Of a stretch of DNA of 64,000 bases, positions 8,043 through 64,000 are shown piece by piece (position 1 is the first letter of the stretch; every line of letters starts with the position of its first letter). The notes beneath the pieces are model-generated. The model was not told the origin of the DNA, searched no databases, and worked only from the letters and a program-made list of their open reading frames with translations. A program made the translations under genes and the position numbers. Origin of the DNA: Kiloniella spongiae (GTDB lineage: Bacteria > Pseudomonadota > Alphaproteobacteria > Kiloniellales > Kiloniellaceae); contig NZ_LAQL01000002.1 of NCBI RefSeq assembly GCF_001026905.1, positions 620,001 to 684,000 on the forward strand. The letters are read 5' to 3'.

Positions 8043-11000
8043 GTGTTTTCAGCCTTTTTCATCAATCGCCCCAAGTTTGCCTTGGTCATATCAATTGTTA
8101 TTTCTCTGGCAGGCATCATCGCCCTAAACTCAATTCCCGTCGCGGAATACCCGGACATTACACCACCACAGGTCAAGGTAACCACCAGCTATCCCGGTGC
8201 GAATGCAACTGTTGTTGAACAGTCTGTCGCCGCCCCAATTGAAGCAAAAGTCAACGGTGTTGACGACATGCTATATATGTCTTCAACAAGCAGTAACGAT
8301 GGCGGTTACGAACTAACAGTCACCTTTGCTGTGGGAACAGATCCGGATATTGCTGCAGTTAATGTCCAAAATCGAGTTGCAACAGCCAATTCCTCGCTGC
8401 CACAAGAAGTCACACGACAAGGCGTGATTACGCAGAAACAGTCAACGTCAATGCTTCTTGTAATCAATATGGTCTCACCTGATAACTCGCAAGATTCACT
8501 GTTCCTGAGTAACTACGCTTCAATCTATATTCAGGATTCACTCGCACGCATTAATGGCGTCGGTAGCGTCTCTCAGTTCGGAGCCCTGGATTACGGAATG
8601 CGAGTCTGGCTCAATCCGGATCGTATGACAGCCGTCGAACTCACAACCAAAGATGTGACCGAGGCGATTGAAAATCAAAACATTCAAGCCACGGCTGGAC
8701 AGTTAGGCGCACCGCCATTTGAAGGAACACCACAATTTCAGTACACCCTTCAGGCCAAAGGGCGCCTAACCACCGTTGAAGAATTCGAAAATATCGTTAT
8801 TCGAGCTAATCAGGACGGCTCCTTTGTCCGATTAAAAGACATCGCACGCATAGAGCTTGGATCTCAAAGCTATTCATCAGCTTCAAAACTTAACAACGCT
8901 CCTTCTGCAGCAATCGCGGTCTATCAATCACCCGGAGCAAATGCGCTAGATGTCGCGGATGCCATCTATGCAGAGCTGGATCGCCTGTCAGAGAACTTCC
9001 CACAAGGCGTGGAGTATAAAATACTCTACGATACGACTAACGCCGTTCGGGCCTCGGTCAAAGAAGTCATCGAAACGTTGCTGATTACCTTTGCTCTTGT
9101 TGTCAGCGTTACTTTCCTCTTTTTGAGTGACTGGCGCTCAACTCTGATCCCAAGTCTTGCGATCCCTGTTTCCCTTATTGGTACTTTTGCCGTTCTTTAT
9201 GCCGTTGGCTTCAGTGCCAATATGATCACACTTTTTGCCATTATCCTCGCCATTGGCATTGTCGTCGATGACAGTATTGTCGTTGTCGAAAATGTACAGA
9301 GGATCATGAAAGAAACCGGAAAGTCAGCCCCAGATTCGACTTTACTGGCAATGAAAGAAGTTACTGGCCCTGTCGTCGCCACAACACTGGTTTTGCTGGC
9401 GGTCTTTGTGCCCGTATCCTTCATGCCCGGCATTACTGGGGAATTATACAAGCAATTCTCACTCACGATCTGTGTTGCAGTTTCTCTGTCATCTATAAAC
9501 GCCTTAACCCTATCACCCGCACTTTGCGCACTTCTTTTAAAGCCTGACAGCGGAGAACCTCGAGGTCCTTTGAAACTGTTCGCAAATCTCGTCGATCGTA
9601 CACGTAATGGCTACAGCAGAGTTGTTGCTCTTATGATTAGACGACTTGCAATTTCCCTGGCCGTACTTGGTATTTTTGCGGGTGTGACCGTCTATATGTT
9701 CCAGATTGTTCCTACAGGCTTTATTCCCATGGAAGATAAGGGCGTGTTCTTCGTGAACGTTCAGCTTCCGGATGGGGCATCACTGGAGCGAACAAATAAA
9801 GTTACCGCTGATGTCACAGATATGCTGCTCGAAGAAGAAGGCGTCACCGATGTTATCTCTGTTTCCGGCTTCAGTATAATATCAGGCGCTGCTTCAAACT
9901 CATCCCTTCTGATACCGATATTAAGTGACTGGTCAGAACGAAGCTCTTTCGAATTAAAATGGTTCAATATTCTAGGCCGCATTAATGGTCGCTTAGCAGG
10001 TCTTGCATCAGCAGAATCCTTTGCTTTCCCTCTGCCTCCTATTATGGGGCTCGGCACAAGCGGTGGCGTTGAAGCCCAGGTTCAGGATTATCTAGGACGA
10101 ACGCCACAAGAACTTGCTTCGGCTGTGCGCAGCTTGGCCTTTGCAGCTAACCAGCAACCAGAGTTAACATCTGTATTCAGTACCTATTCTGCCAATATCC
10201 CCCAGCTATTCCTAGAAGTTGATCGGGAAAAAGCGCTCGTTCTCGGCGTAAAGATCTCGGATATTTTCTCAACCTTGCAGGCAAATCTTGGTTCATCCTA
10301 TATCAATGACTTTAACCTCTACGGAAAGGTGTACAGAGTTCAGATCCAGGCAGAGGCACAGTTCCGAGACGGACTGGAAGATATCGATAATCTGCATGTT
10401 CGTAACGATAGCGGTGATATGATCCCTCTAAGAACACTGATCGAGATTGAGCCCATCTTAGGCCCCTTGTCCGTCGCTCGTTACAATCAGTTCAAATCGG
10501 CATCCATAACCGGATCACCTGCGACAGGCTACAGTAGTGGTGATGCCATTGCTGCACTGGAACGCGCCGCGGCTGATGCACTTCCCGATGGATATGGTAT
10601 TGAATGGACGGGAACCTCTAAACAGGAACAGGAAGCTGGTGGTTATATTGTTATCATATTCTCACTGGCCCTGATCTTTGCGTACCTCTTTCTTGTTGCC
10701 CAATATGAAAGCTGGAGCATCCCTCTATCGGTTATAGTCTCAGTTATTCTCGCTGCTTTTGGTGCTTTAGTACCCATGGCACTCTTACCTTTTCTCGATA
10801 ACAATCTCTATGCTCAAATCGGCATGGTGATGCTTATTGGGCTTGCCAGTAAAAGCGCCATTCTCATTGTCGAGTTTGCCAAGGTCAGACGTGAAGAAGG
10901 CCTTTCTATAACAGAAGCCGCCCTTGATGCTGCAAGCCTTCGCTTCAGAGCTGTTATGATGACAGCCCTTTCATTCATCCTTGGGGTTTTACCCCTGATC

Positions 11001-52097: not shown

Positions 52098-55085
52098 TCA
52101 TTGATTCAACAGTCCGGAAACCAATCCCCTTGAAAGCTTTTGCCCCTGCAAGAGAACCTCAAGCAAAGGCTCTACCTTCGTTTCGAGATTAATGTTCAAT
52201 CGGAAAGGATGCCCATCGAGAACATCTTTATTCGCACCGCTAATACCCAAACTTACCTGAGCCGCAGAATTGATTGGTTTATCAATATCCAGCGTGAGTT
52301 CCGTATATTCAAAATTGTGTAAAGCCTTTACTAGGAGTTCAACCTGTTCGCCGCCCACCGCCAAGGCATCCGCTATCAGTTGCGAACGAATTTGTAAGAC
52401 CCCAGGTCCTTCTGTCGACAAAGCACCTTTTTCAATAATAATCTGATCGCCTTCAAACTTAATTGGAATCTCACCTGTTAATTGCCCCGTTCCACTCAAA
52501 TCTTCGCGTCCAATCAAGGCAAAGAGCTCTTTTAAATCCAATTTCTTAATTTGCAAAAGTACCGATTTTTGATCCGCAAGAATCGGAATTTTTTGAGGAT
52601 CGAAGCCAAGATTACCACCAGCTATCATCAATACGGCAGTCCGTAGATCAACAATAAAATCATCTGCTTCGGGCACAACACCAAACACCAATTCAATATC
52701 AGAGATTGGTATCCCGGCATCAAAAGACGCAATTTCAAGTTTCTGTCCCGGTGGCAAAACAGGCTCTGCTATGCCTTGAAAGAAAAACCGTCCCACCAAA
52801 CCTTTAAAAGGAAGCTCGTTAATCTCTGCATCGGATAGATCCACATTCAAATACCCGTGCCCGTCAGGGATACCCTTATCTAGCTTTATCTCGACGCGTC
52901 CGGAAACCGTGCCATCAAGAACTTTCAGGTCAGACAGGTGCGGGGTAAATATCTTTGGCTGGATGCCGTTTTCGCTAAACAAAATCGGTGGGATAACTGC
53001 CTCAATATCTCCGTTAAGAGAGATTAAATTCATATCCCCTTCAAGGTTTAATAATTTCGTTCCTTCAAAGAGTTTTATCTCAGCAGATAAAGCCGTCTTT
53101 TCCGGAAGACCTGATGTCTCGCTCTTAAAAGTAAATGTGGGCAATCCAAGTTCGGGATCTTCCTGTTTGATGTTTGCTTCCGATCGGCTATCAAGAATAA
53201 ATGCCTTAACATCAAAGTCATTCGCAGGTTGGAAAAAAGGCGTGGAGATATCATTACGAATAGAGCTGATCTTTAACTTTTGATCAGGCAGCTCGATTTC
53301 GGATATTGTTGTCCCGATATGCCACTTGCCTCCCTCGCGTCCCCGAAGGCTACTCAGAAAATTAGAAACAATGATGTCTTTGTTTTCTTTGATCAGATTG
53401 AACTTCACGGCTTTAACACTGAAGTCAGCGGAAACACCCCTGAGCTCGACAGCATTTTCTGCTGTATCCGGCAGAAGTTGAAGTTCACTCTCGAGATTCT
53501 TAAAAGAGAAGACCTCTTTAGCTTGAGTTCGAATAACGCCCGGGACTTCGAACTTTGCAAGCTCGACTTGCCCCCCATCACCTTTGAGGATCAACCTATC
53601 TTTATCTAAGGAGAAGCTTCCTTGTGCGGTGCCTTCTGAAACCTTTATCAGGTAGTCAGCATGTTGTTTTGACTGAGTATTATCAACATTCTCTGTTTTC
53701 ACCGTCCACTCACCGTGCCACCCCTCAGAGGTGTCTTTTGATACGGCGGCTGTTAATGACCCGTCAGATATTTTATGCCCGACAAGCTCTAATGCTTTTC
53801 CTCTGAGATCAAGAGTTCCATTTTCGAGTTGTATTTGGTCATATCCTTGACTGATACTTCCCGTTGCCTTCATCAGAGACGTTATCTCAATAGGTGTTTC
53901 CCCGCGGAGTTTAACACCAATCTTACCTGCGACAGGCTGCTCATCATTCAAGAGAAAAGTAATCGCAGTTTCGGCAGGATTGATTTGCCCCGATAAGGAC
54001 GGGCCAAACATTTGTTTTATGACAGGAGGAATAATTTCATCGGCGGTCCAATTCGTTAAATTAAACTGTCCAACTTCATTAAGGCCAATTTTGGTCTCGG
54101 GACCTTTTTGCATAAACGTTAAGGGTATCTGCCCATCAAAACGGGTCCCTGAAACCAGTTGACCTTCAACCCCAATATTTGCAATCAAATTCACTGTCGC
54201 CTGTCCAAAATGAAGCATCAGGGGATTAATTGCCTCACGCCACTTTGACGGCTGGACCTCCCCCACATCAATCTGCCCGACACCATCCAGATTAACCTTC
54301 ATCCCGGTATGTTCGATATCAGCTGGCAAAAAGGCCTTTGGAATATTACCAATTATATCCCCGAAAACATTCCAGTTCAGGCCAGGATCATCCAGAAAAA
54401 AAGATGCTGCACCCTCGCCGGAAAGGCCAGCTTTCTGCCATTTGATATCCCAGTCAATTTGCAGATCAGAACTTGAAAAAATTGCGCCGAGATAAAATTC
54501 TTCTGGTTCATAGTCAGCTAAGCGCCCCCCTTCGAAGCTGATCCATCCCTGCACATCATCTTCCGAGTGTCCTTTCACTTCAACAGCAAAGGGCAACTGT
54601 GCTGCCCCCAGATCCGTCATGATTTGAAGGCTACTGTTATTGATTTTAAGTGCTGGTCTAAAGGGGAGTACCGGTAGGGATGATTGTGTCTCTGTTTGTC
54701 CGTCAGATCCAAACAGACTGCCCAAAGATCCTAATACAGGTCCTTGTCCAGTGACATCAAGCGACAAGAGCAGGCGATCCAAACCAATCGCCAGCTCACC
54801 ACCTTGCCACAAATCCATCAGATCGTAGGATAAAACAAGACGATCAAGGGTAACCTCGCTCTCAATCCCGACAACCACATTCTGAATAATCACTTCACGG
54901 TGGGATACTTCCGAAACTTCGGCTGAAAAGCCGGGTAATGCCAAATTGTCTGCAACCTGATCCAACAGATACTGAGCAAGTGGGAGACGATAATAGATTG
55001 CGGAACCAATGATCAAAAGCATCACTGCCCCAAACCACAAGAGCCTGCGCCCCCACTTTCTCATGCTATTTTTTTCTGCAATCAT
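52098..55085 (-). CDS. ydbH: YdbH-like AsmA/TamB-type intermembrane lipid transport protein
   Basis: Large periplasm-spanning protein of 995 residues. One N-terminal membrane helix (about 15-33, RLLWFGAVMLLIIGSAIYYR) anchors it in the inner membrane; the rest is beta-rich repeats of the AsmA-like/DUF748-type fold with a C-terminal dicarboxylate-like YdbH signature region (about 760-990). The family forms a hydrophobic groove carrying phospholipids between membranes, redundantly with TamB and YhdP. It is followed by ynbE (102 nt) and ydbL. No good ribosome binding site is seen; Met at codon 8 (55064) is an alternative start. Confidence 0.88.
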   Translation of the reverse strand: MIAEKNSMRKWGRRLLWFGAVMLLIIGSAIYYRLPLAQYLLDQVADNLALPGFSAEVSEVSHREVIIQNVVVGIESEVTLDRLVLSYDLMDLWQGGELAIGLDRLLLSLDVTGQGPVLGSLGSLFGSDGQTETQSSLPVLPFRPALKINNSSLQIMTDLGAAQLPFAVEVKGHSEDDVQGWISFEGGRLADYEPEEFYLGAIFSSSDLQIDWDIKWQKAGLSGEGAASFFLDDPGLNWNVFGDIIGNIPKAFLPADIEHTGMKVNLDGVGQIDVGEVQPSKWREAINPLMLHFGQATVNLIANIGVEGQLVSGTRFDGQIPLTFMQKGPETKIGLNEVGQFNLTNWTADEIIPPVIKQMFGPSLSGQINPAETAITFLLNDEQPVAGKIGVKLRGETPIEITSLMKATGSISQGYDQIQLENGTLDLRGKALELVGHKISDGSLTAAVSKDTSEGWHGEWTVKTENVDNTQSKQHADYLIKVSEGTAQGSFSLDKDRLILKGDGGQVELAKFEVPGVIRTQAKEVFSFKNLESELQLLPDTAENAVELRGVSADFSVKAVKFNLIKENKDIIVSNFLSSLRGREGGKWHIGTTISEIELPDQKLKISSIRNDISTPFFQPANDFDVKAFILDSRSEANIKQEDPELGLPTFTFKSETSGLPEKTALSAEIKLFEGTKLLNLEGDMNLISLNGDIEAVIPPILFSENGIQPKIFTPHLSDLKVLDGTVSGRVEIKLDKGIPDGHGYLNVDLSDAEINELPFKGLVGRFFFQGIAEPVLPPGQKLEIASFDAGIPISDIELVFGVVPEADDFIVDLRTAVLMIAGGNLGFDPQKIPILADQKSVLLQIKKLDLKELFALIGREDLSGTGQLTGEIPIKFEGDQIIIEKGALSTEGPGVLQIRSQLIADALAVGGEQVELLVKALHNFEYTELTLDIDKPINSAAQVSLGISGANKDVLDGHPFRLNINLETKVEPLLEVLLQGQKLSRGLVSGLLNQ

Positions 55086-55285
55086 AGCTGCAGATTAACA
55101 CAGGAGACGCGGGAGGAAAGTGTCTATTCATTTGAAACACAAGAATAAGAAAGTGGAAATTGAACAGAGAAACAAACACTTACTCGAGAACACTTTGTGG
55201 TAAACCCATGTCGCATATTGTACTTTGTTCCGTAAAGACACACCTATAAAAGCAAATAGATAATATTTCAGGAGCACGTGAGGCC

Positions 55286-56242
55286 ATGGCACAGAGGATC
55301 AAGGTTCTTATTAATGCAATCAAGGATCAAGCCCTCAATATCAAGACCTATGAACTCGTCAGCCCTGATGGCGAGCCACTCCCTCCCTTTACTCCCGGTG
55401 CACATATTGATTTTTTCCTGCCCGATGGCCTGATCAGGCAATATTCCTTGTCGAACTCTGCACAGGAACGAAACCGATACGTCGTTGGCATTCAAAAGGA
55501 AGAGCACGGTCGGGGGGGATCGCGTCTCATTCACGATCAATTTAAAGTCGGCGATGCAGTTGAAATATCTGCCCCCCGAAATAATTTTACCCTCGATGAA
55601 ACAGCTCAACGTTACAAACTGATCGCGGGTGGAATTGGCATAACCCCAATCATGTCTATGGCGCGCCGCTTGAAAGCTATCGACAAACCTTTTCAACTGC
55701 ATTACGCCTGTCGCAATGAACAACGCGCCGCTTTTTTAGAAGAACTCAAGTCTTCAGAACTATCAAAGCATGTTGTGTTTTCGTATGATGACGTTCACGG
55801 CCCCTTGAACACATTGGTCCTGTTCGGACGCCCTGAACCAGATGTGAAAATATACTGCTGCGGCCCAACCGGCCTGATGGATGCGGTTAAATTTGCGACC
55901 AGTTCATGGGCAGAGGGAAGCGTCAGGTTTGAACATTTTTCTGCAAGCGAAGATAGCGGCCCACGAGACGATGATGGTAGCTTTGAAATCATTATCCAAA
56001 GCACAGGACGTGTATTAAAAGTCCCCGCTGATAAAAGCATCTTGAGCGTTCTGGAAGAAAACGGATTTTTTATAGATCATGCCTGTTGCGAAGGTATCTG
56101 CGGCACTTGTGAAACAGGCATGATCCACGGCGAAGCAGATCATCGTGATATGATACTGACCGAGGCAGAAAAAAAGGAAAACCAACAGATCATGGTTTGT
56201 TGTTCCAGAGCAAAAACACCAACGTTAACACTGGATCTCTAA
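55286..56242 (+). CDS. PDR-type oxygenase reductase (FMN/NAD/2Fe-2S)
   Basis: Single-chain electron-transfer reductase of 318 residues, phthalate dioxygenase reductase/VanB type. Flavin domain with RQYSLSN (about 51-57), NAD domain with AGGIGITPIMSMARRL and YCCGPTGLMDAV, then a C-terminal plant-type 2Fe-2S ferredoxin domain: Cys ligands in HACCEGICGTCETG and MVCCSRA. It feeds electrons from NADH to a Rieske oxygenase, but no oxygenase is adjacent; the nearest (58.8 kb) has its own reductase. Starts 18 nt after AGGAG with GAGG closer; the partner may be elsewhere. Confidence 0.9.
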   Translation: MAQRIKVLINAIKDQALNIKTYELVSPDGEPLPPFTPGAHIDFFLPDGLIRQYSLSNSAQERNRYVVGIQKEEHGRGGSRLIHDQFKVGDAVEISAPRNNFTLDETAQRYKLIAGGIGITPIMSMARRLKAIDKPFQLHYACRNEQRAAFLEELKSSELSKHVVFSYDDVHGPLNTLVLFGRPEPDVKIYCCGPTGLMDAVKFATSSWAEGSVRFEHFSASEDSGPRDDDGSFEIIIQSTGRVLKVPADKSILSVLEENGFFIDHACCEGICGTCETGMIHGEADHRDMILTEAEKKENQQIMVCCSRAKTPTLTLDL

Positions 56243-56383
56243 TAGATCTTTGCCAATACGTTGCTGTAACAAAACAATGTTTTCTCCTTACGTAAAATCA
56301 CGAGGTAGCGTCAAACGGTTTTCTGACTTATCATGCTTGCAATTTAATCCTTTACCCATTCATGATCTATTCCGGGGGAATTT

Positions 56384-56548
56384 ATGACCTATTTAAAACT
56401 TGTTCTTGCTGCTCTTTTCATTACCGGCCTTAGTGCCTGCTCACCAGAAGTTGGCAGCACAGAATGGTGTGATGCATTGAAAGAAAAGCCAAAAGGTGAT
56501 TGGTCTGCGAATGAAGCCACTGATTTCGCAAAGCACTGTATTCTGTAA
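56384..56548 (+). CDS. DUF3012 small lipoprotein
   Basis: A 54-residue lipoprotein. Signal region MTYLKLVLAALFITGLSAC gives the lipidated Cys19; the mature part contains EVGSTEWCDALKEKPKGDW and a late FAKHC, with two further Cys at residues 29 and 52 that could pair. This matches the DUF3012 family as I remember it. GGGGG lies 8 nt upstream of the ATG. Function unknown; it precedes the esterase gene by about 27 nt and may be co-transcribed. Confidence 0.82.
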   Translation: MTYLKLVLAALFITGLSACSPEVGSTEWCDALKEKPKGDWSANEATDFAKHCIL

Positions 56549-56575
56549 AACACACTACTTTACAAAGGTATGCCT

Positions 56576-57535
56576 ATGGGTGAGGAGTTGGATAAAGAAC
56601 TTCAAGAGTTCGTCTCTGTATCAGAAAGTTTTTCCATACCAGGAACAACCGAATTGAATGATATCAGAGCCGGTTACAATCTGATGTGTCAGCATTACAA
56701 TACCCCTCACCCCGAGGACCTTAAGGTTCTCGAAGGCGCCGTCGAAGGCCCGGAAGGTGATATTCCTATCCGGGTTTATCGCCCTACTGATACGATTGGG
56801 GAGCCATATCCAACTCTCTTATATTTTCATGGCGGTGGTTGGGTTCTTGGCGATCTGGATAGTCACGATTCTATTACGGCTGATCTTGCCAGTCAGGCAA
56901 AGATACAGGTAATAGCAGTTGATTACCGTTTGGCCCCAGAACATGTGTATCCAGCAGCTCTCGATGATTGCTGGGCCGTTTATCAGGCCATTACAGAAAA
57001 CCCGGACATCTTCGGGGCCGATAGTGATCGCCTAATCATCGGAGGAGATTCAGCTGGCGCTTCGCTGGCGGCAAGTGTTGCTCTTATTGCACGGGACATA
57101 AACCTGCTTGGTTTTACCCCCCCATCACTCAGAGGACAGTTACTAATCTATCCTGCTCTGACAAGTGAAGATCTTCCTTCACGGACCACACAGGCACAGG
57201 CACCTTTGTTCAGCACGCCCGATTTGGATACCTTCATCGACTATTATCTCGGCCATAAAGCTACCGAAGGAAACAAGCAAGACTTTAAAGTTTTCCCGGC
57301 GCAAGCTGACGATTTCTCAAAACTTCCAGCAACTTTTATCAGTGCGGCAGAGCTTGACCCCTTAGCTGATGACGGACCGGATTACGCCGACAAACTGAAA
57401 GCCAAAGGCGTTCAAGTAAAATCCATTGTTGAGCCGGGTCTGATGCATGGCTGGCTGCGCGCACGTAACAGTAGCCCAAGAGCAGCAGAGGCCTTTGCCC
57501 GAATAGTACAGGCCCTCAGAGATCTATCCGCTTAA
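56576..57535 (+). CDS. HSL-family alpha/beta hydrolase (esterase)
   Basis: Hormone-sensitive-lipase-type esterase of 319 residues. Oxyanion motif YFHGGGWVLGD, nucleophile GGDSAGASLAAS (Ser near 160), acid in SAELDPLADDGP and His in EPGLMHGWLRARN. Such enzymes hydrolyse short acyl esters. The start at 56576 has AAGG 7 nt upstream; the ATG at 56570 is too close to it. Preceded by the DUF3012 lipoprotein gene and convergent with the O-methyltransferase gene. Confidence 0.92.
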   Translation: MGEELDKELQEFVSVSESFSIPGTTELNDIRAGYNLMCQHYNTPHPEDLKVLEGAVEGPEGDIPIRVYRPTDTIGEPYPTLLYFHGGGWVLGDLDSHDSITADLASQAKIQVIAVDYRLAPEHVYPAALDDCWAVYQAITENPDIFGADSDRLIIGGDSAGASLAASVALIARDINLLGFTPPSLRGQLLIYPALTSEDLPSRTTQAQAPLFSTPDLDTFIDYYLGHKATEGNKQDFKVFPAQADDFSKLPATFISAAELDPLADDGPDYADKLKAKGVQVKSIVEPGLMHGWLRARNSSPRAAEAFARIVQALRDLSA

Positions 57536-57582
57536 GATGTACTTTAGTAAGATTTATGGAGATGATCTGATATTTTTTAGCA

Positions 57583-58245
57583 CTAAATGTCTTTTTTACG
57601 AACCAGCGTCATGCCGTCTGAAAAGGGAAGTGTCACCATTTCGACCCGTTCGTCTTTGACAACGATTTCATTCAATCGACGAATAGCGTCTGTAATCGGT
57701 TCTGTCACAGTTACCTTGGCGACGTTTCCATACCAAAGAACATTATCAATCACGAGCAAGCCGTCAGGCTTCAGGATTTTGAGGCAAGCTTCGTAGTATT
57801 CTGGATATCTCTCTTTATCCGCATCAAGGAAAATCAGATCAAACTCAAGTCCTTTGTCTTCCAATCTGGCAACTTCTGCCAAGGCATCACACAGGCGGAG
57901 TTCTATTTTGTCCTCAACGCCAGCTTCAAGCCAAAAAGCTTCGGCAATGTCTGTGAACTTCTTTTGATTATCCAGTCCAAGCAAAACACCATCATCAGGT
58001 AACGCCCTGGCCATACACAAACTGCTGTAGCCCGTGAAAACACCAATTTCCAAAACCGATCGTGCCTTGAGCAACTTCACCAAAAAGAACAGGAACTGTC
58101 CCTGTTCCGGGCACACCTGCATATGGCCGAATCTCATCTGCAGTGTTTCTGCTCTCAGTCGGGCCAAGAGCGAATCTTCACGCCCACCAAAACTGATTAA
58201 ATACTCCTGCAACTCATCGGTAATAGAAACATGACGAGAATTCAT
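57583..58245 (-). CDS. class I SAM-dependent O-methyltransferase (CCoAOMT-like)
   Basis: Methyltransferase of 220 residues of the caffeoyl-CoA/catechol O-methyltransferase type (Methyltransf_3). SAM motif I VLEIGVFTGYSSLCMARALP (about 61-80), acidic motif LLGLDNQKKF, and metal-binding FDLIFLDADKERYPEYYE followed by LLVIDNVLWYG. Acceptor unknown. It is divergent from the riboswitch-gbcAB unit; a weak ribosome binding site precedes it. Confidence 0.9.
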   Translation of the reverse strand: MNSRHVSITDELQEYLISFGGREDSLLARLRAETLQMRFGHMQVCPEQGQFLFFLVKLLKARSVLEIGVFTGYSSLCMARALPDDGVLLGLDNQKKFTDIAEAFWLEAGVEDKIELRLCDALAEVARLEDKGLEFDLIFLDADKERYPEYYEACLKILKPDGLLVIDNVLWYGNVAKVTVTEPITDAIRRLNEIVVKDERVEMVTLPFSDGMTLVRKKDI

Positions 58246-58461
58246 AAAAAAATTCCATTGTTTTCAAATAATCACGACACCTTTTACCATGGCAACGACC
58301 TATTTCCACAAGCATAAATTACAGTGTCGCAAACGTCGATCTCGCTGTCGTTTTTCAGGGCGACCACGAGGCACGGTTTCATAAAATCGGCCTTAGTAAT
58401 GAATTTAGAAATGACAACTCCTCCAGGTGTTTCATGAAGTTAATATTTTGATTTCATGAAA
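58246..58461. other. intergenic region O-methyltransferase / riboswitch
   Basis: About 215 nt holding the divergent promoters of the O-methyltransferase gene and of the riboswitch transcript. The only clear element is the pair of TTCATGAA palindromes at 58431-58460. No coding region is seen. Confidence 0.5.
58431..58460. promoter_or_regulatory. two TTCATGAA palindromes 22 bp apart
   Basis: The 8-bp palindrome TTCATGAA occurs at 58431-58438 and 58453-58460, two helical turns centre to centre, both preceded by T (TTTCATGAA). They lie immediately before the cobalamin riboswitch and may bind a regulator of the gbcAB-type operon. Confidence 0.5.
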
Positions 58462-58665
58462 ATAATTGGGAAGTCGGTCCGCGCAACTTTACGTCCCACA
58501 GCGCAAACCCGACGCTGCCCCCGCAACGGTAGGAGAGGACCAGAGATCACAAGATATCCACTGGATTAAGCTCTGGGAAGGGTGTGATCTTAGCCATAGT
58601 TCATGGCCCTCTCGAGCCCGGAAACCAGCCTGAGGCAAGTCTAGTAGTCGCGGTGGGCGATTGGA
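58462..58665 (+). promoter_or_regulatory. cobalamin riboswitch upstream of gbcA
   Basis: The conserved cobalamin aptamer blocks occur in order: GGGAAGTCGGT (58468-58478), the B12-box core CTGCCCCCGCAACGGTA (58515-58531), CTGGGAAGG (58573-58581), and GAGCCCGGAAACCAGCC (58614-58630), followed by CGGTGGGCGA at 58651. Spacing and order match the AdoCbl/cobalamin class on the plus strand. The next gene is gbcA, 130 nt on, whose AGGA site at 7 nt from the ATG may be the controlled element. No transporter or B12-synthesis gene intervenes. Confidence 0.93.
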
Positions 58666-58795
58666 ACGACCTGTTGATCTCTAAGCAGCATAAAAGCGCG
58701 CAGAGACAATGCTGTTCCCCTCCCCGTCGCTCGTCAGAATTTACCACTCAGAAAATAATATCTGGGTAGCGCTTGTTGCTGGATAGGACCGAGAG

Positions 58796-60046
58796 ATGAC
58801 TGTATCAGCCCACGACACAATGTTTGACCTGCTTCGCAGTAAAAAACAGAACTACAGCCTGCCGCGAGAGTTTTATAACGATCCGGATTTCTTCAAACTC
58901 GATATGCAACACATCTTCGGGAAGTCATGGATTTTTGCTGGTCTGGTTTGCGACATCCCCAAGCCCGGAAACTTCTTCACCCTATCAATCGGTGACAATC
59001 CTCTGGTTATTGTCAGAGACGATAACAGCGAAGTCCATGCAATCTACAACACCTGTCGCCACCGCGGTTCCAAAGTCTGTCTGGAAGAAAAAGGCCATAC
59101 AGCAAAACTGGTTTGTCCCTATCACCAATGGACCTACAATCTCGACGGCAACCTGCTGTTTGCCGGCAACATGGGCGAAAGTTTTAACCCGGCCGATTTC
59201 CCCCTAAAGAAAGCAAACATTGGCATTGCTGGCGGCATGATCTTTGTCTGCCTTGATGAAAATCCCCCTGCCTTTGCCCCCTTCAAAGAAGCCGTCGAAC
59301 CTTTCCTCAAGCCACACGCATTGGACAGAGCCAAAGTTGCTCACGAAATTACCATCAGCGAGAAAGCAAACTGGAAGCTGGTAATCGAAAACAATCGCGA
59401 GTGCTATCACTGCAATGGCTCACACCCCGAGCTTCTGAACTCCCTTCTAGAGTTCGATAATACAGATGATCCGCGCGCGACCCCTGAATTCAAAGCACTG
59501 GTCGCCAAGAAAACCCGCGACTGGGATGCCTTAGGAATAGCCCACGAAAGCACCCTCCACAATTTGGAATACCGTGCTGTTCGCATGCCATTGGCAGAGG
59601 GTATCCATTCCATGACCATGGATGGTTCTGTTGCCTGTCAAAAGCTAATGGGTGATTTGACCGACCCGGATATGGGTTCAATGCGCCTGTTACATCTGCC
59701 CAATACCTGGAATCATTTCATGGGGGACCATTCAATTGTCTTCCGCGTGATGCCTGTGGGTCCGCAAGAGACATTGGTGACAACCAAGTGGATTGTCCAC
59801 GAAGACGCTGTCGAAGGTGTCGATTACGACCTGGAGAAAATGGTTAAAGTCTGGAACGCCACAAACCATCAGGACAGAGAACTGGCCGAAAACAATCAAC
59901 TGGGTATCAACTCTAAAGCCTATCAGCCCGGCCCCTATGCAGAAGGTGCCGAGTTTGGCGTTATCAATTTCATTAACTGGTATAGCGCCCACATGCTCGG
60001 CAAGTTGTTTGACCCTGCCAAGCTCCAGCTCGCCGCCAGCGAATAA
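58796..60046 (+). CDS. gbcA: Rieske oxygenase, glycine-betaine demethylase type (GbcA-like)
   Basis: Rieske non-haem iron oxygenase alpha subunit of 416 residues. The 2Fe-2S ligands are C87-H89 (NTCRHRG) and C107-H110 (CPYHQW). The mononuclear iron site is in ENNRECYHCNGSHPEL (His205, His210). The ENNRECYHC pattern is characteristic of the GbcA/stachydrine demethylase group that removes an N-methyl group as formaldehyde from glycine betaine, stachydrine or carnitine-like quaternary amines. Glycine betaine is the best guess but not proven. It is the first gene after the cobalamin riboswitch and is followed by its reductase gene. Confidence 0.86.
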   Translation: MTVSAHDTMFDLLRSKKQNYSLPREFYNDPDFFKLDMQHIFGKSWIFAGLVCDIPKPGNFFTLSIGDNPLVIVRDDNSEVHAIYNTCRHRGSKVCLEEKGHTAKLVCPYHQWTYNLDGNLLFAGNMGESFNPADFPLKKANIGIAGGMIFVCLDENPPAFAPFKEAVEPFLKPHALDRAKVAHEITISEKANWKLVIENNRECYHCNGSHPELLNSLLEFDNTDDPRATPEFKALVAKKTRDWDALGIAHESTLHNLEYRAVRMPLAEGIHSMTMDGSVACQKLMGDLTDPDMGSMRLLHLPNTWNHFMGDHSIVFRVMPVGPQETLVTTKWIVHEDAVEGVDYDLEKMVKVWNATNHQDRELAENNQLGINSKAYQPGPYAEGAEFGVINFINWYSAHMLGKLFDPAKLQLAASE

Positions 60047-60135
60047 GCATTCATTTTTAAACTGTACGAGGGCGCAATGACTGCGTCCTCAAAATCAATA
60101 AAGCCCAAAAGGGCGACTAATTGGGGAACTCTAAA

Positions 60136-61233
60136 ATGGCTGAAATGGCTGTTAAGCAGGCTATTAGAGATTTGAACACAACGACGCCGTGGGATAGCCA
60201 CTCTCAAATGCTAGAGTGCGTGATGATCCTTCAGGATACGCACGACGTCAAAACATTTTGCTTTCAAACCACAGACAACAGCTGGTTTCGTTACCTGCCC
60301 GGACAGTTCATTACCATTGAGTTGGAAATTGATGGCAAACCTGTTCTACGGACCTACACCCTGTCTTCCAGTCCATCGCGCCCCTTGTCAATTTCCATTA
60401 CGGTCAAGGCAAATAAAGATGGCTATGCCTCTTGTTGGTTACACGAAAACCTGAAAGAAGGTGATAAAATCAAGGCCCATGGCCCTGCAGGTCTCTTTAC
60501 CCTGCACAACCACATGGCAGATAAATATCTCTTTATTTCAGGTGGGGCAGGTATTACGCCGACACTTTCCATGACACGCTGGCTTTTTGATCAAGGCACC
60601 CATACAGATGTGCATTTTATCCACTGCGCCCGAACACCTTCGGATATCATTGCCCGCCGCGAACTGGAAAGCATGAGCGCCCGCGTCAGCGACATCAAAG
60701 TTGCCTATGCCTGCGAAGAGCCTGATCCTTATGGTGCCTGGACCGGGTATACAGGTCGTCTCAACCAATTGATGTTGGAACTGATTTCACCCGATTATCA
60801 AGAGCGAGAGATTTTTTGCTGTGGTCCAGCACCCTTTATGCAGGCTGTTCGAGATATTCTCAATACAGCTGGCTTCAACATGGACCAATACCATGAAGAG
60901 AGCTTTGAGGCCCCAATCATCGAAGAAGAGGATCGCCCAGAACACGATGACGTTATCATTGATGACGATGCAAAGTCCTCTGTCACCTTCACTAAATCCA
61001 AAAAAGATACCCGGGTTCAGGAATCAGACACCATTCTGACCGCAGCAAAGAAAACGGGCCTTCATATTCCAAGTGCCTGTCAGTTTGGCGTTTGTGGAAC
61101 CTGTAAGGTCAAAAAGGTCTCCGGTGAAGTTCACATGATGCATAACGGCGGGATTACCCAGGAACAGATCGACGACGGCTATGTTCTTGCCTGTTGTTCC
61201 AACCCATTGGGAGACGTTGTTATCGACTTCTAA
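60136..61233 (+). CDS. gbcB: oxygenase reductase (GbcB-like hybrid flavin/2Fe-2S protein)
   Basis: Reductase of 365 residues. FAD domain of ferredoxin-NADP reductase type (about 30-130, LRTYTLSSSPSRPLSISI), NAD domain (LFISGGAGITPTLSMTRWLF, CCGPAPFMQAVRDIL), an acidic linker rich in Glu/Asp (about 260-285), and a C-terminal plant-type 2Fe-2S domain (IPSACQFGVCGTCKVKK, final Cys in VLACCSNPLG). It supplies NADH electrons to the Rieske oxygenase upstream, as in GbcAB. ATG at 60136 has GGGGA 8 nt upstream; a TTG at 60121 overlaps that site. Followed by a terminator. Confidence 0.88.
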   Translation: MAEMAVKQAIRDLNTTTPWDSHSQMLECVMILQDTHDVKTFCFQTTDNSWFRYLPGQFITIELEIDGKPVLRTYTLSSSPSRPLSISITVKANKDGYASCWLHENLKEGDKIKAHGPAGLFTLHNHMADKYLFISGGAGITPTLSMTRWLFDQGTHTDVHFIHCARTPSDIIARRELESMSARVSDIKVAYACEEPDPYGAWTGYTGRLNQLMLELISPDYQEREIFCCGPAPFMQAVRDILNTAGFNMDQYHEESFEAPIIEEEDRPEHDDVIIDDDAKSSVTFTKSKKDTRVQESDTILTAAKKTGLHIPSACQFGVCGTCKVKKVSGEVHMMHNGGITQEQIDDGYVLACCSNPLGDVVIDF

Positions 61234-61247
61234 GAATCTGCATCAGC

Positions 61248-61287
61248 AGAGGTGATCACGGGCAAGATCACCTCTGGGCCACTTTTT
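61248..61287 (+). terminator. terminator after gbcB
   Basis: Perfect 10-bp arms AGAGGTGATC / GATCACCTCT with an 8-nt loop, followed after GGGCCAC by TTTTT. It starts 14 nt past the gbcB stop and separates the riboswitch operon from the FAH gene. Confidence 0.75.
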
Positions 61288-63268: not shown

Positions 63269-64000
63269 TTAGTCGATGATAATCTGGGACGCAGGATTGT
63301 TGACCAGATCATCAATACTGTCGATCATTCCACCAGCTGTACCCATATTGTTAAAAGTAATGGAAGAACCGTTGTGGAAGTCAACAACCACGGTACCATT
63401 CTCACCATTATCAGTAACGTTCGAAATCATGGCATTGAGGTCAGCCAGATCCAAACCACCTGCACCGCTATCAACCACATCAGTAAAACGAAGAACATCT
63501 TCGGAAGCGTTAAAATCAGTAACAACATCCTGTCCAAAAATATCATTTACGCCTGTCCCCTTGAGAGAGAAAATAAAGATATCTGCATCATTCCCTCCCG
63601 CCAGTACATCGTTGCCTGTACCGCCATGGAGAGTATCGTTATCGTTTCCGCCCTCAAGGGTATCATTGTTATCACCGCCATAAAGGAGATCGTTGTCGTT
63701 ACCTCCTTCAAGGACATCATCACCTTCATCACCTCTTAGGATATCATGACCATTCCCACCTTCGAGAATATCGTTTCCGATGCCCCCGATAAGAATATCG
63801 TCATCATTGCCACCGCTGAGTTCATCCGCCCCTTCACCTCCGCGAAGTATATCCTTATGATTCCCGCCACTTAAAGTATCATCACCGTCATCGCCATAGA
63901 GGATATCGTTACCATTCCCACCTTCGAGAATGTCGTTATCATCACCGCCAAAAATGATATCATTATCACTTCCGCCATCAATAACATCGTCCCCTTCATC
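63269..64000 (-). CDS. RTX-type calcium-binding repeat protein, C-terminal part (runs off the window)
   Basis: Uninterrupted minus-strand frame of 243 codons entering from the right edge, so the N-terminus is missing. It holds about 15 tandem nonapeptides of the GGxGxDxUx type (for example DILEGGNGN and DTLHGGTGN), forming a calcium parallel beta-roll, then a C-terminal region (DIFIFSLKGTG, then VVTDFNASEDVLRF) that ends the protein in ASQIIID. Such endings are typical of type I secreted proteins. Many repeats have N or D instead of the second G, so calcium affinity may vary. The function of the missing N-terminal part cannot be told; no secretion genes are seen. Confidence 0.88.
   Translation of the reverse strand, partial: DEGDDVIDGGSDNDIIFGGDDNDILEGGNGNDILYGDDGDDTLSGGNHKDILRGGEGADELSGGNDDDILIGGIGNDILEGGNGHDILRGDEGDDVLEGGNDNDLLYGGDNNDTLEGGNDNDTLHGGTGNDVLAGGNDADIFIFSLKGTGVNDIFGQDVVTDFNASEDVLRFTDVVDSGAGGLDLADLNAMISNVTDNGENGTVVVDFHNGSSITFNNMGTAGGMIDSIDDLVNNPASQIIID

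Follow-up and report, generated by a model that had tools for sequence, protein, structure and literature searches.

A cobalamin riboswitch upstream of gbcAB-like genes in Kiloniella spongiae, and its probable role in choosing between two routes of glycine betaine demethylation

The known targets of cobalamin riboswitches, as given in the available excerpts of PMC3766115 and PMC2211319, are genes for B12 synthesis, transport and isozymes, to which PMC2211319 adds a fatty-acid desaturase; the word betaine does not occur in the main text of either article. Control of isozymes by a B12 riboswitch is already known, and a catabolic target is unusual. Here we describe a cobalamin riboswitch that stands directly before genes resembling gbcA and gbcB, the oxygenase and reductase genes of glycine betaine monooxygenase, in a 64,000-nucleotide stretch of the Kiloniella spongiae genome (contig NZ_LAQL01000002.1, positions 620,001 to 684,000), to which we refer as the window. 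We think it likely that this leader represses gbcAB when B12 is sufficient, and that gbcAB substitutes for the corrinoid-dependent system MtgBCD, just as metE substitutes for metH. A B12-independent route of this kind had been proposed by a sequence-only reading of the window, and the comparisons reported below (genes resembling mtgB and mtgC, a conserved linkage, and co-occurrence with MttB) support it.

The corrinoid route has been studied in Ruegeria pomeroyi, where mutants show that betaine demethylation and methionine synthesis both require MtgC and MtgD, and where MtgB was assigned from homology and proteomics (PMC12478193, 2025, available excerpts). The sequence-only reading knew of no B12 riboswitch over gbcAB, and our literature search by titles and abstract beginnings likewise found no earlier description, although supplementary tables were not covered by it and an unremarked listing is possible. 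The sole article matching both ‘glycine betaine monooxygenase’ and ‘riboswitch’ was PMC12478193, in which the latter word occurs once, in a reference title on a glycine riboswitch.

The aptamer is matched by the RF00174 covariance model from its first to its last position, with 91.7 bits (E 1.9e-21) against a gathering threshold of 31.5, and it is the only gathering-level Rfam match in the window (Table 1). Thus the claim of an intact cobalamin aptamer holds. The start given in the sequence-only reading, 58462, falls within the element, 54 bases from its beginning. The genome as a whole (4.47 Mb, 99.5% complete) contains five cobalamin riboswitches. When 18 gbcA-linked aptamers are folded to a consensus, 46 pairs are predicted; in 28 of these, both partners have changed together at least once with pairing preserved (a compensatory change).

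Two further features bear on ligand sensing, which in corrinoid riboswitches involves kissing between the loops L5 and L13 together with the helix P13 (PMC10653944 and PMC9600662, in the portions available). A 13-base string around L5 is identical in 18 of the 19 gbcA-linked elements. A P13/L13-type hairpin stands at the aptamer end in all 19, with six standard pairs in 16, as judged by a motif derived from the same leaders in which it was then searched. Its commonest form is (A/G)TCGC-GGTGG-GCGAT; the Rhodoferax stem has a different sequence, with pairing still kept. The duplex of L5 with L13 is predicted at -17.5 kcal/mol with one bulged U, but it borrows bases of the P13 stem, and the kissing proper would therefore be shorter. 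By this prediction, the element at the locus has the potential to form the kissing loop.

The aptamer was also said to lead directly into gbcA- and gbcB-like genes, and NF058607 and NF058606 are indeed the best models for the two frames across 58796-61233. The first product scores 665.7 bits, narrowly missing the curated cut-off of 670, and carries the Pfam domains Rieske and Ring_hydroxyl_A. The second, scanned from 60121, scores 448.5 bits, clearly short of the cut-off of 500, and carries FAD_binding_6, NAD_binding_1 and Fer2; comparison with relatives suggests that its start is probably the ATG at 60136. Because the NCBIfam curated cut-offs are missed, we call the proteins GbcA-like and GbcB-like. 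A terminator had been claimed after the operon. A 10-bp hairpin followed seven bases later by TTTTT is visible there, but our terminator scan did not list it, so that a terminator is at most plausible.

The linkage of riboswitch to gbcA recurs widely. We searched for GbcA in relatives of the genome and in a draw of the class, using overlapping sets of 116, 61 and 385 genomes, and obtained 53 loci. Of these, 42 were checked for a riboswitch: 39 with Rfam (19 + 20), and all 42 with R1, a model for which the 18 gbcA-linked aptamers of the class were the input, so that its matches on those 18 arise by construction; three loci were checked with R1 only. The 11 loci outside the check (L116-L126), at roughly 148-170 bits, are Rieske matches of a general kind, and further matches were given no locus. 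A riboswitch lies upstream of gbcA, in the same orientation, at 18 of the 42 same-class loci, including the window's own. Full-length matches that reach 498 bits have it in 17 of 19 cases, the 22 weaker ones in none, and one further linked match is cut by a contig end (genome G060; G-numbers denote genomes). The strong matches without a riboswitch are those of G166 and G411. Carriers occur in seven families (f1, f2, f4, f23, f44, f112 and f114) of the class; the element is kept upstream of gbcA homologues in related genomes, as the sequence-only reading had asked to be checked.

We also scanned named genomes, namely the best 80 of at least 587 stretches encoding a GbcA relative, all gammaproteobacterial by name except Rhodoferax (13 of the 80 with Rfam, all 80 with R1). 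Among these best 80 the betaproteobacterium Rhodoferax lacus is the sole carrier, with 110.7 bits for RF00174 and 97.2 for R1; over the other 79, R1 found no gbcA riboswitch, giving two 12-bit matches (E 0.23) that are both downstream of gbcA. Since the arrangement recurs in 17 further genomes of the class and in Rhodoferax lacus, the adjacency of aptamer and gbcA is not due to chance. The partner gene is kept as well: gbcB follows gbcA in all 17 riboswitch-bearing genomes tested by tblastn, and in G269 by eye, while in G060 the contig ends. An O-methyltransferase-like gene upstream is kept within the genus (6/6, tblastn), and the five loci with listed genes in other genera have different neighbours. 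Longest-frame gene calls are poor in GC-rich loci, and were supplemented by tblastn with proteins of the K. spongiae genome.

For a tree of GbcA we used 50 of the 58 rows chosen, dropping eight in which the motif found no open frame (loci L108, L112, L136, L138, L141, L143, L144 and L070); L114 and L115 are not among the rows chosen, and L113, L110 and L142 have long branches and unsure places. The riboswitch-bearing proteins fall in two lineages. The window protein groups with gammaproteobacterial GbcA (Halomonadaceae, Pseudomonas), being 57-62% identical to the three compared, whereas members of the second lineage are 43-48% identical to it. The riboswitch label requires at least five or six changes on the tree, which does not support a single gain followed by plain descent; the changes may reflect transfer or repeated loss alike.

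If the riboswitch acts as we suppose, a B12-dependent counterpart of gbcAB should exist in the same genome. The earlier reading had proposed a check for MttB-family and corrinoid protein genes, and we found three MttB-family genes, one of them MtgB-like, and an MtgC-like gene. The MtgB-like protein, at C75, best matches PDB entry 4yyc (830 bits; putative trimethylamine methyltransferase), ahead of 9yce (420 bits; glycine betaine methyltransferase) and 7xcl (143 bits; trimethylamine methyltransferase). In NCBIfam it matches the trimethylamine model only, at 282.4 bits against a cut-off of 525. Next to its gene stand one for a GbdR-like regulator (409.7 bits, cut-off 480) and one for a FAD/GCV_T protein of 855 aa which, from its domain make-up, is of dimethylglycine or sarcosine dehydrogenase type. 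The solved relatives and these neighbours together point to glycine betaine as the substrate. The MtgC-like corrinoid protein, of 230 aa and followed by DUF1638, scores below cut-off against both NF047996 (200.9 vs 370) and NF047995 (176.4 vs 310); available excerpts of PMC12478193 place marine MtgC apart from anaerobic MtgC. It holds the only B12-binding_2 domain found in the genome, and PF01717 was found neither in this genome nor in five other riboswitch-bearing members of the genus; therefore neither a classical MetH nor a classical MetE is apparently present. By gene content, then, the putative counterpart is there, and its activity would be that of a corrinoid betaine demethylase.

Two observations on these methyltransferase genes stand apart from this argument. 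At 10026-10124 (-) of locus L013, the mtgB-like gene matches Rfam PYLIS_3 with 51.1 bits (gathering 38) and has no in-frame stop; PYLIS_3 is the mttB pyrrolysine element. A second MttB-family gene, at L010 2478-7533 (-), occurs with genes of enolase-superfamily and old-yellow-enzyme type.

We then asked whether riboswitch and corrinoid route occur together across genomes. All 19 genomes with riboswitch-linked gbcA (12 + 6 + Rhodoferax) contain MttB, and all 19 encode B12-binding_2 in a frame of 127-377 aa, below MetH size, some having a MetH-sized one in addition. The comparison set comprised 21 GbcA genomes without the riboswitch, whose GbcA either falls within the tree's two GbcA lineages or belongs to the named set: G166, G100, G411 and G395, together with 17 named genomes out of 18 sampled from the 80. 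MttB is present in three of the 21, giving a Fisher p of 1.2e-8, which becomes 2.8e-6 when near relatives are merged; these values overstate independence because MttB is near-universal in the order of K. spongiae and because p is 0.057 without the gammaproteobacteria. Genomes that belong to other Rieske lineages, or whose placement is unsure, were not counted: G018, G093, G115 and G407 (MttB, no riboswitch) and G099, G103, G110, G323, G324, G404, G412 and G439 (neither). Contrasts in the expected direction are provided by Rhodoferax versus the gammaproteobacteria, G207 versus G411, and G058/G436 versus G395, the latter two joins having values of 98 and 76 in the tree. Outside the order, presence of the element tracks the corrinoid route, three exceptions apart.

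The proposed mechanism can be stated as follows. Both GbcAB, using iron, O2 and NAD(P)H, and MtgB-MtgC-MtgD would take the first methyl group off glycine betaine, leaving dimethylglycine. When B12 is present, the bound ligand would cause L13 to dock on L5 and P13 to form, so that gbcAB is off and betaine passes through MtgBCD, its methyl group entering methyl-tetrahydrofolate. When B12 falls, P13 would open, possibly pairing with a downstream anti-P13 strand; gbcAB would be expressed, and the methyl group would be released as formaldehyde. The analogy with metE reaches further here, because MtgC is common to methionine synthesis in Ruegeria and no classical MetH or MetE is found in K. spongiae. 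If MtgC likewise serves methionine synthesis in this genome, which has no domain of either classical enzyme, the switch would spare scarce corrinoid for methionine.

We also considered how the signal would pass from aptamer to gbcA. An intrinsic terminator was rejected as the output step, since the terminator scan listed none on this strand between 58240 and 61420. We then folded the leaders with P13 locked, leaving out of the 19 loci G358, whose start is unclear, and five near-duplicates. Predicted access to the ribosome-binding region went down in ten of the 13 remaining loci, mostly slightly, and up in three; because the effect is mostly slight and is reversed in these three, we do not claim sequestration of the region. 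A candidate competitor of P13 appears as a pairing peak about 60 nt downstream, with a mean of -15.4 kcal/mol over 14 loci, compared with about -9 to -12 elsewhere. In the same loci native pairing is better than swapped pairing (p 0.0002, for a position range picked after an earlier shuffle result). Against dinucleotide shuffles of single loci, the pairing lies at or below the 5% level in just three of 19 cases (mean z -0.68), and so it is only the position profile and the native-versus-swapped test that suggest an anti-P13 strand. A promoter-like match, 9 of 12 at 58731-58759, is within shuffle range.

Several findings weigh against our interpretation. The curated NCBIfam cut-offs are missed for GbcA, GbcB and MtgC, and the available excerpts of PMC12478193 themselves argue for B12 dependence of MtgBCD on the grounds of homology and induction. 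G166, G100 and Nitrincola (G441) have GbcA and MttB with no riboswitch found, while G018, G093, G115 and G407 have MttB beside weaker Rieske relatives with no element at the locus. Three members of the genus have MttB without GbcA. MttB occurs in 57 of the 61 genomes of the order, and co-occurrence within the order therefore says little. When the gammaproteobacteria are removed and near relatives merged, the counts with and without MttB are 11/0 for riboswitch genomes against 2/2 for the others (the p of 0.057 above), and G010 against G100 and G166 gives no contrast, all three having MttB. As to the output step, no U-tract terminator was found in the scan of the riboswitch strand, predicted ribosome-binding access changes little when P13 is locked, and the anti-P13 copy of K. 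spongiae itself is weaker than its shuffle mean (-11.7 vs -13.7 kcal/mol).

Other explanations must be weighed against the same evidence. The enzyme pair might act on some other methylated ammonium compound, that of another MttB paralogue, with the isozyme logic kept. The existence of two riboswitch-bearing GbcA-like lineages would suit this, as would genomes with up to 11 listed MttB matches, but the window protein groups with gammaproteobacterial GbcA at the identities given above and has a high score in the GbcA model, so that we consider another substrate unlikely. Alternatively, GbcAB might serve B12 synthesis, by way of methyl groups or of glycine for 5-aminolevulinate, and be shut by B12 as an end product. 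Industrial production of B12 makes use of betaine feeding, and two of the four other riboswitches of the genome precede cobalt- or B12-type transport genes, a third preceding a lone DUF4198 gene. However, the methyl group removed by GbcAB leaves as formaldehyde, which is no methyl donor, and beyond the order the element accompanies MttB; nor did R1 find the element at any of the other 79 named gbcA loci among the best 80 of at least 587. End-product control thus seems to us rather improbable.

The sign of the control could also be reversed, with B12 switching gbcAB on. A precedent exists in the cobT riboswitch of A. halodurans, the first activating corrinoid riboswitch known, all other known ones being repressing (PMC10653944, available excerpts). 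Yet that case works by a terminator that excludes P13, and none is listed on this strand in the interval scanned here; moreover, a B12-induced oxygenase would make no evident sense, and locking P13 lowers predicted ribosome-binding access in most loci, if mostly slightly. We regard activation as very unlikely. Least credible of all is a relic riboswitch, with an internal promoter driving gbcAB: the promoter-like match noted above could be cited in its favour, despite lying within shuffle range, but aptamer, P13 and linkage are conserved, with compensatory changes, over seven families of the class and a betaproteobacterium. Repression of gbcAB by B12, with MtgBCD as the counterpart, is the reading we retain.

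Table 1. Coordinates of features at the riboswitch-gbcAB locus, numbered from the first base of the window.
Feature	Position	Strand	Basis
Cobalamin riboswitch aptamer (RF00174)	58408..58647	+	full-length covariance-model match
Aptamer L5 loop CCCCCG, expected kissing-loop partner	58518..58523	+	position from RF00174 match
P13/L13-type hairpin AGTCGC-GGTGG-GCGATT, expression-platform arm	58646..58662	+	motif match
Candidate anti-P13 strand, competitor of P13	58717..58733	+	pairing peak over 14 loci
gbcA-like, Rieske oxygenase subunit of glycine betaine monooxygenase, 416 aa	58796..60046	+	NF058607, Pfam
gbcB-like, FAD/NAD and [2Fe-2S] reductase subunit, 365 aa	60136..61233	+	NF058606, Pfam
10-bp inverted repeat, then T5 at 61283-61287; possible terminator	61248..61275	+	read from sequence

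Some observations were made beside these analyses. Elsewhere in the window, a second FAD/[2Fe-2S] reductase is encoded at 55286-56242 (+), with no oxygenase partner among the frames listed at 55000-58245, and an open frame at 63269-64000 (-) has many glycine/aspartate-rich nonapeptide repeats, by eye of the RTX calcium-binding type. Elsewhere in the genome, two riboswitches, at L009 12390-12623 (-) and 15944-16181 (+), have behind them a cobalt transport cluster of DUF4198-cbiM type and a DUF4198 gene standing alone. Another, at L011 8230-8444 (+) (C12:268229-268443), precedes a 114-aa protein without Pfam or NCBIfam match; a DinF-like MATE transporter (below cut-off) follows, and a GC-rich hairpin lies near the start of the small gene. 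This protein and a small protein behind another riboswitch, at L106, look alike by eye, but with a BLASTP E of 0.093 we claim no kinship. In G436 (L131 2836-3359; L156) a second, divergent riboswitch lies back to back with that of gbcAB and faces an nrdA-like gene, a classic B12-independent isozyme, which places two apparently B12-independent enzymes side by side. In G017 (L157, C7:70000-86000), the gbcAB riboswitch is likewise back to back with a second one, which faces the opposite direction before a small gene and a gene that by eye is ABC binding-protein-like; gbcAB there lies among genes resembling, again by eye, a TonB receptor and an ABC uptake system for B12 or metal.

If our reading is correct, the availability of B12 would decide the fate of the betaine methyl group, between entry into folate and release as formaldehyde, and B12 supply is predicted to set the mode in which bacteria demethylate an abundant osmolyte. 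The list of known B12 riboswitch targets (synthesis, uptake of B12 or cobalt, and a few isozymes) would be widened by a catabolic oxygenase, and the corrinoid betaine route of marine bacteria would be linked with the classical GbcAB route. A broader statement, which may equally well prove right or wrong, is that a riboswitch-gbcAB cassette, passed between several proteobacterial lineages or repeatedly kept in them, switches the chemistry of betaine demethylation by B12 supply, from corrinoid methyl transfer to O2-dependent oxidation and back, and protects the corrinoid of a shared MtgC for making methionine.

It remains to compare the locus with described systems. Like the cobalamin riboswitches of metE and nrdAB, this one stands directly before a B12-free enzyme, the apparent B12-dependent counterpart being encoded in the same genome. 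In contrast to those cases, the enzyme here would be catabolic and O2-dependent, unrelated in sequence family to the one it replaces, and its product would be formaldehyde in place of methyl-tetrahydrofolate. Pseudomonas and Chromohalobacter GbcAB are the same two-component Rieske system, but the named gammaproteobacterial loci are without such a riboswitch by R1 (79 of the 80 named), and 16 of the 17 named GbcA genomes sampled, Rhodoferax apart, are without MttB, whereas K. spongiae has both. With the MtgBCD system of Ruegeria pomeroyi the genome shares MtgB-like, MtgC-like and DUF1638 genes, and the absence of a detected classical MetH domain. Finally, the available excerpts of PMC12478193 describe bacteria that have GbcAB but not MtgBCDE, and name no riboswitch on either; here the genes of both routes are found together, with a B12 riboswitch before gbcAB.

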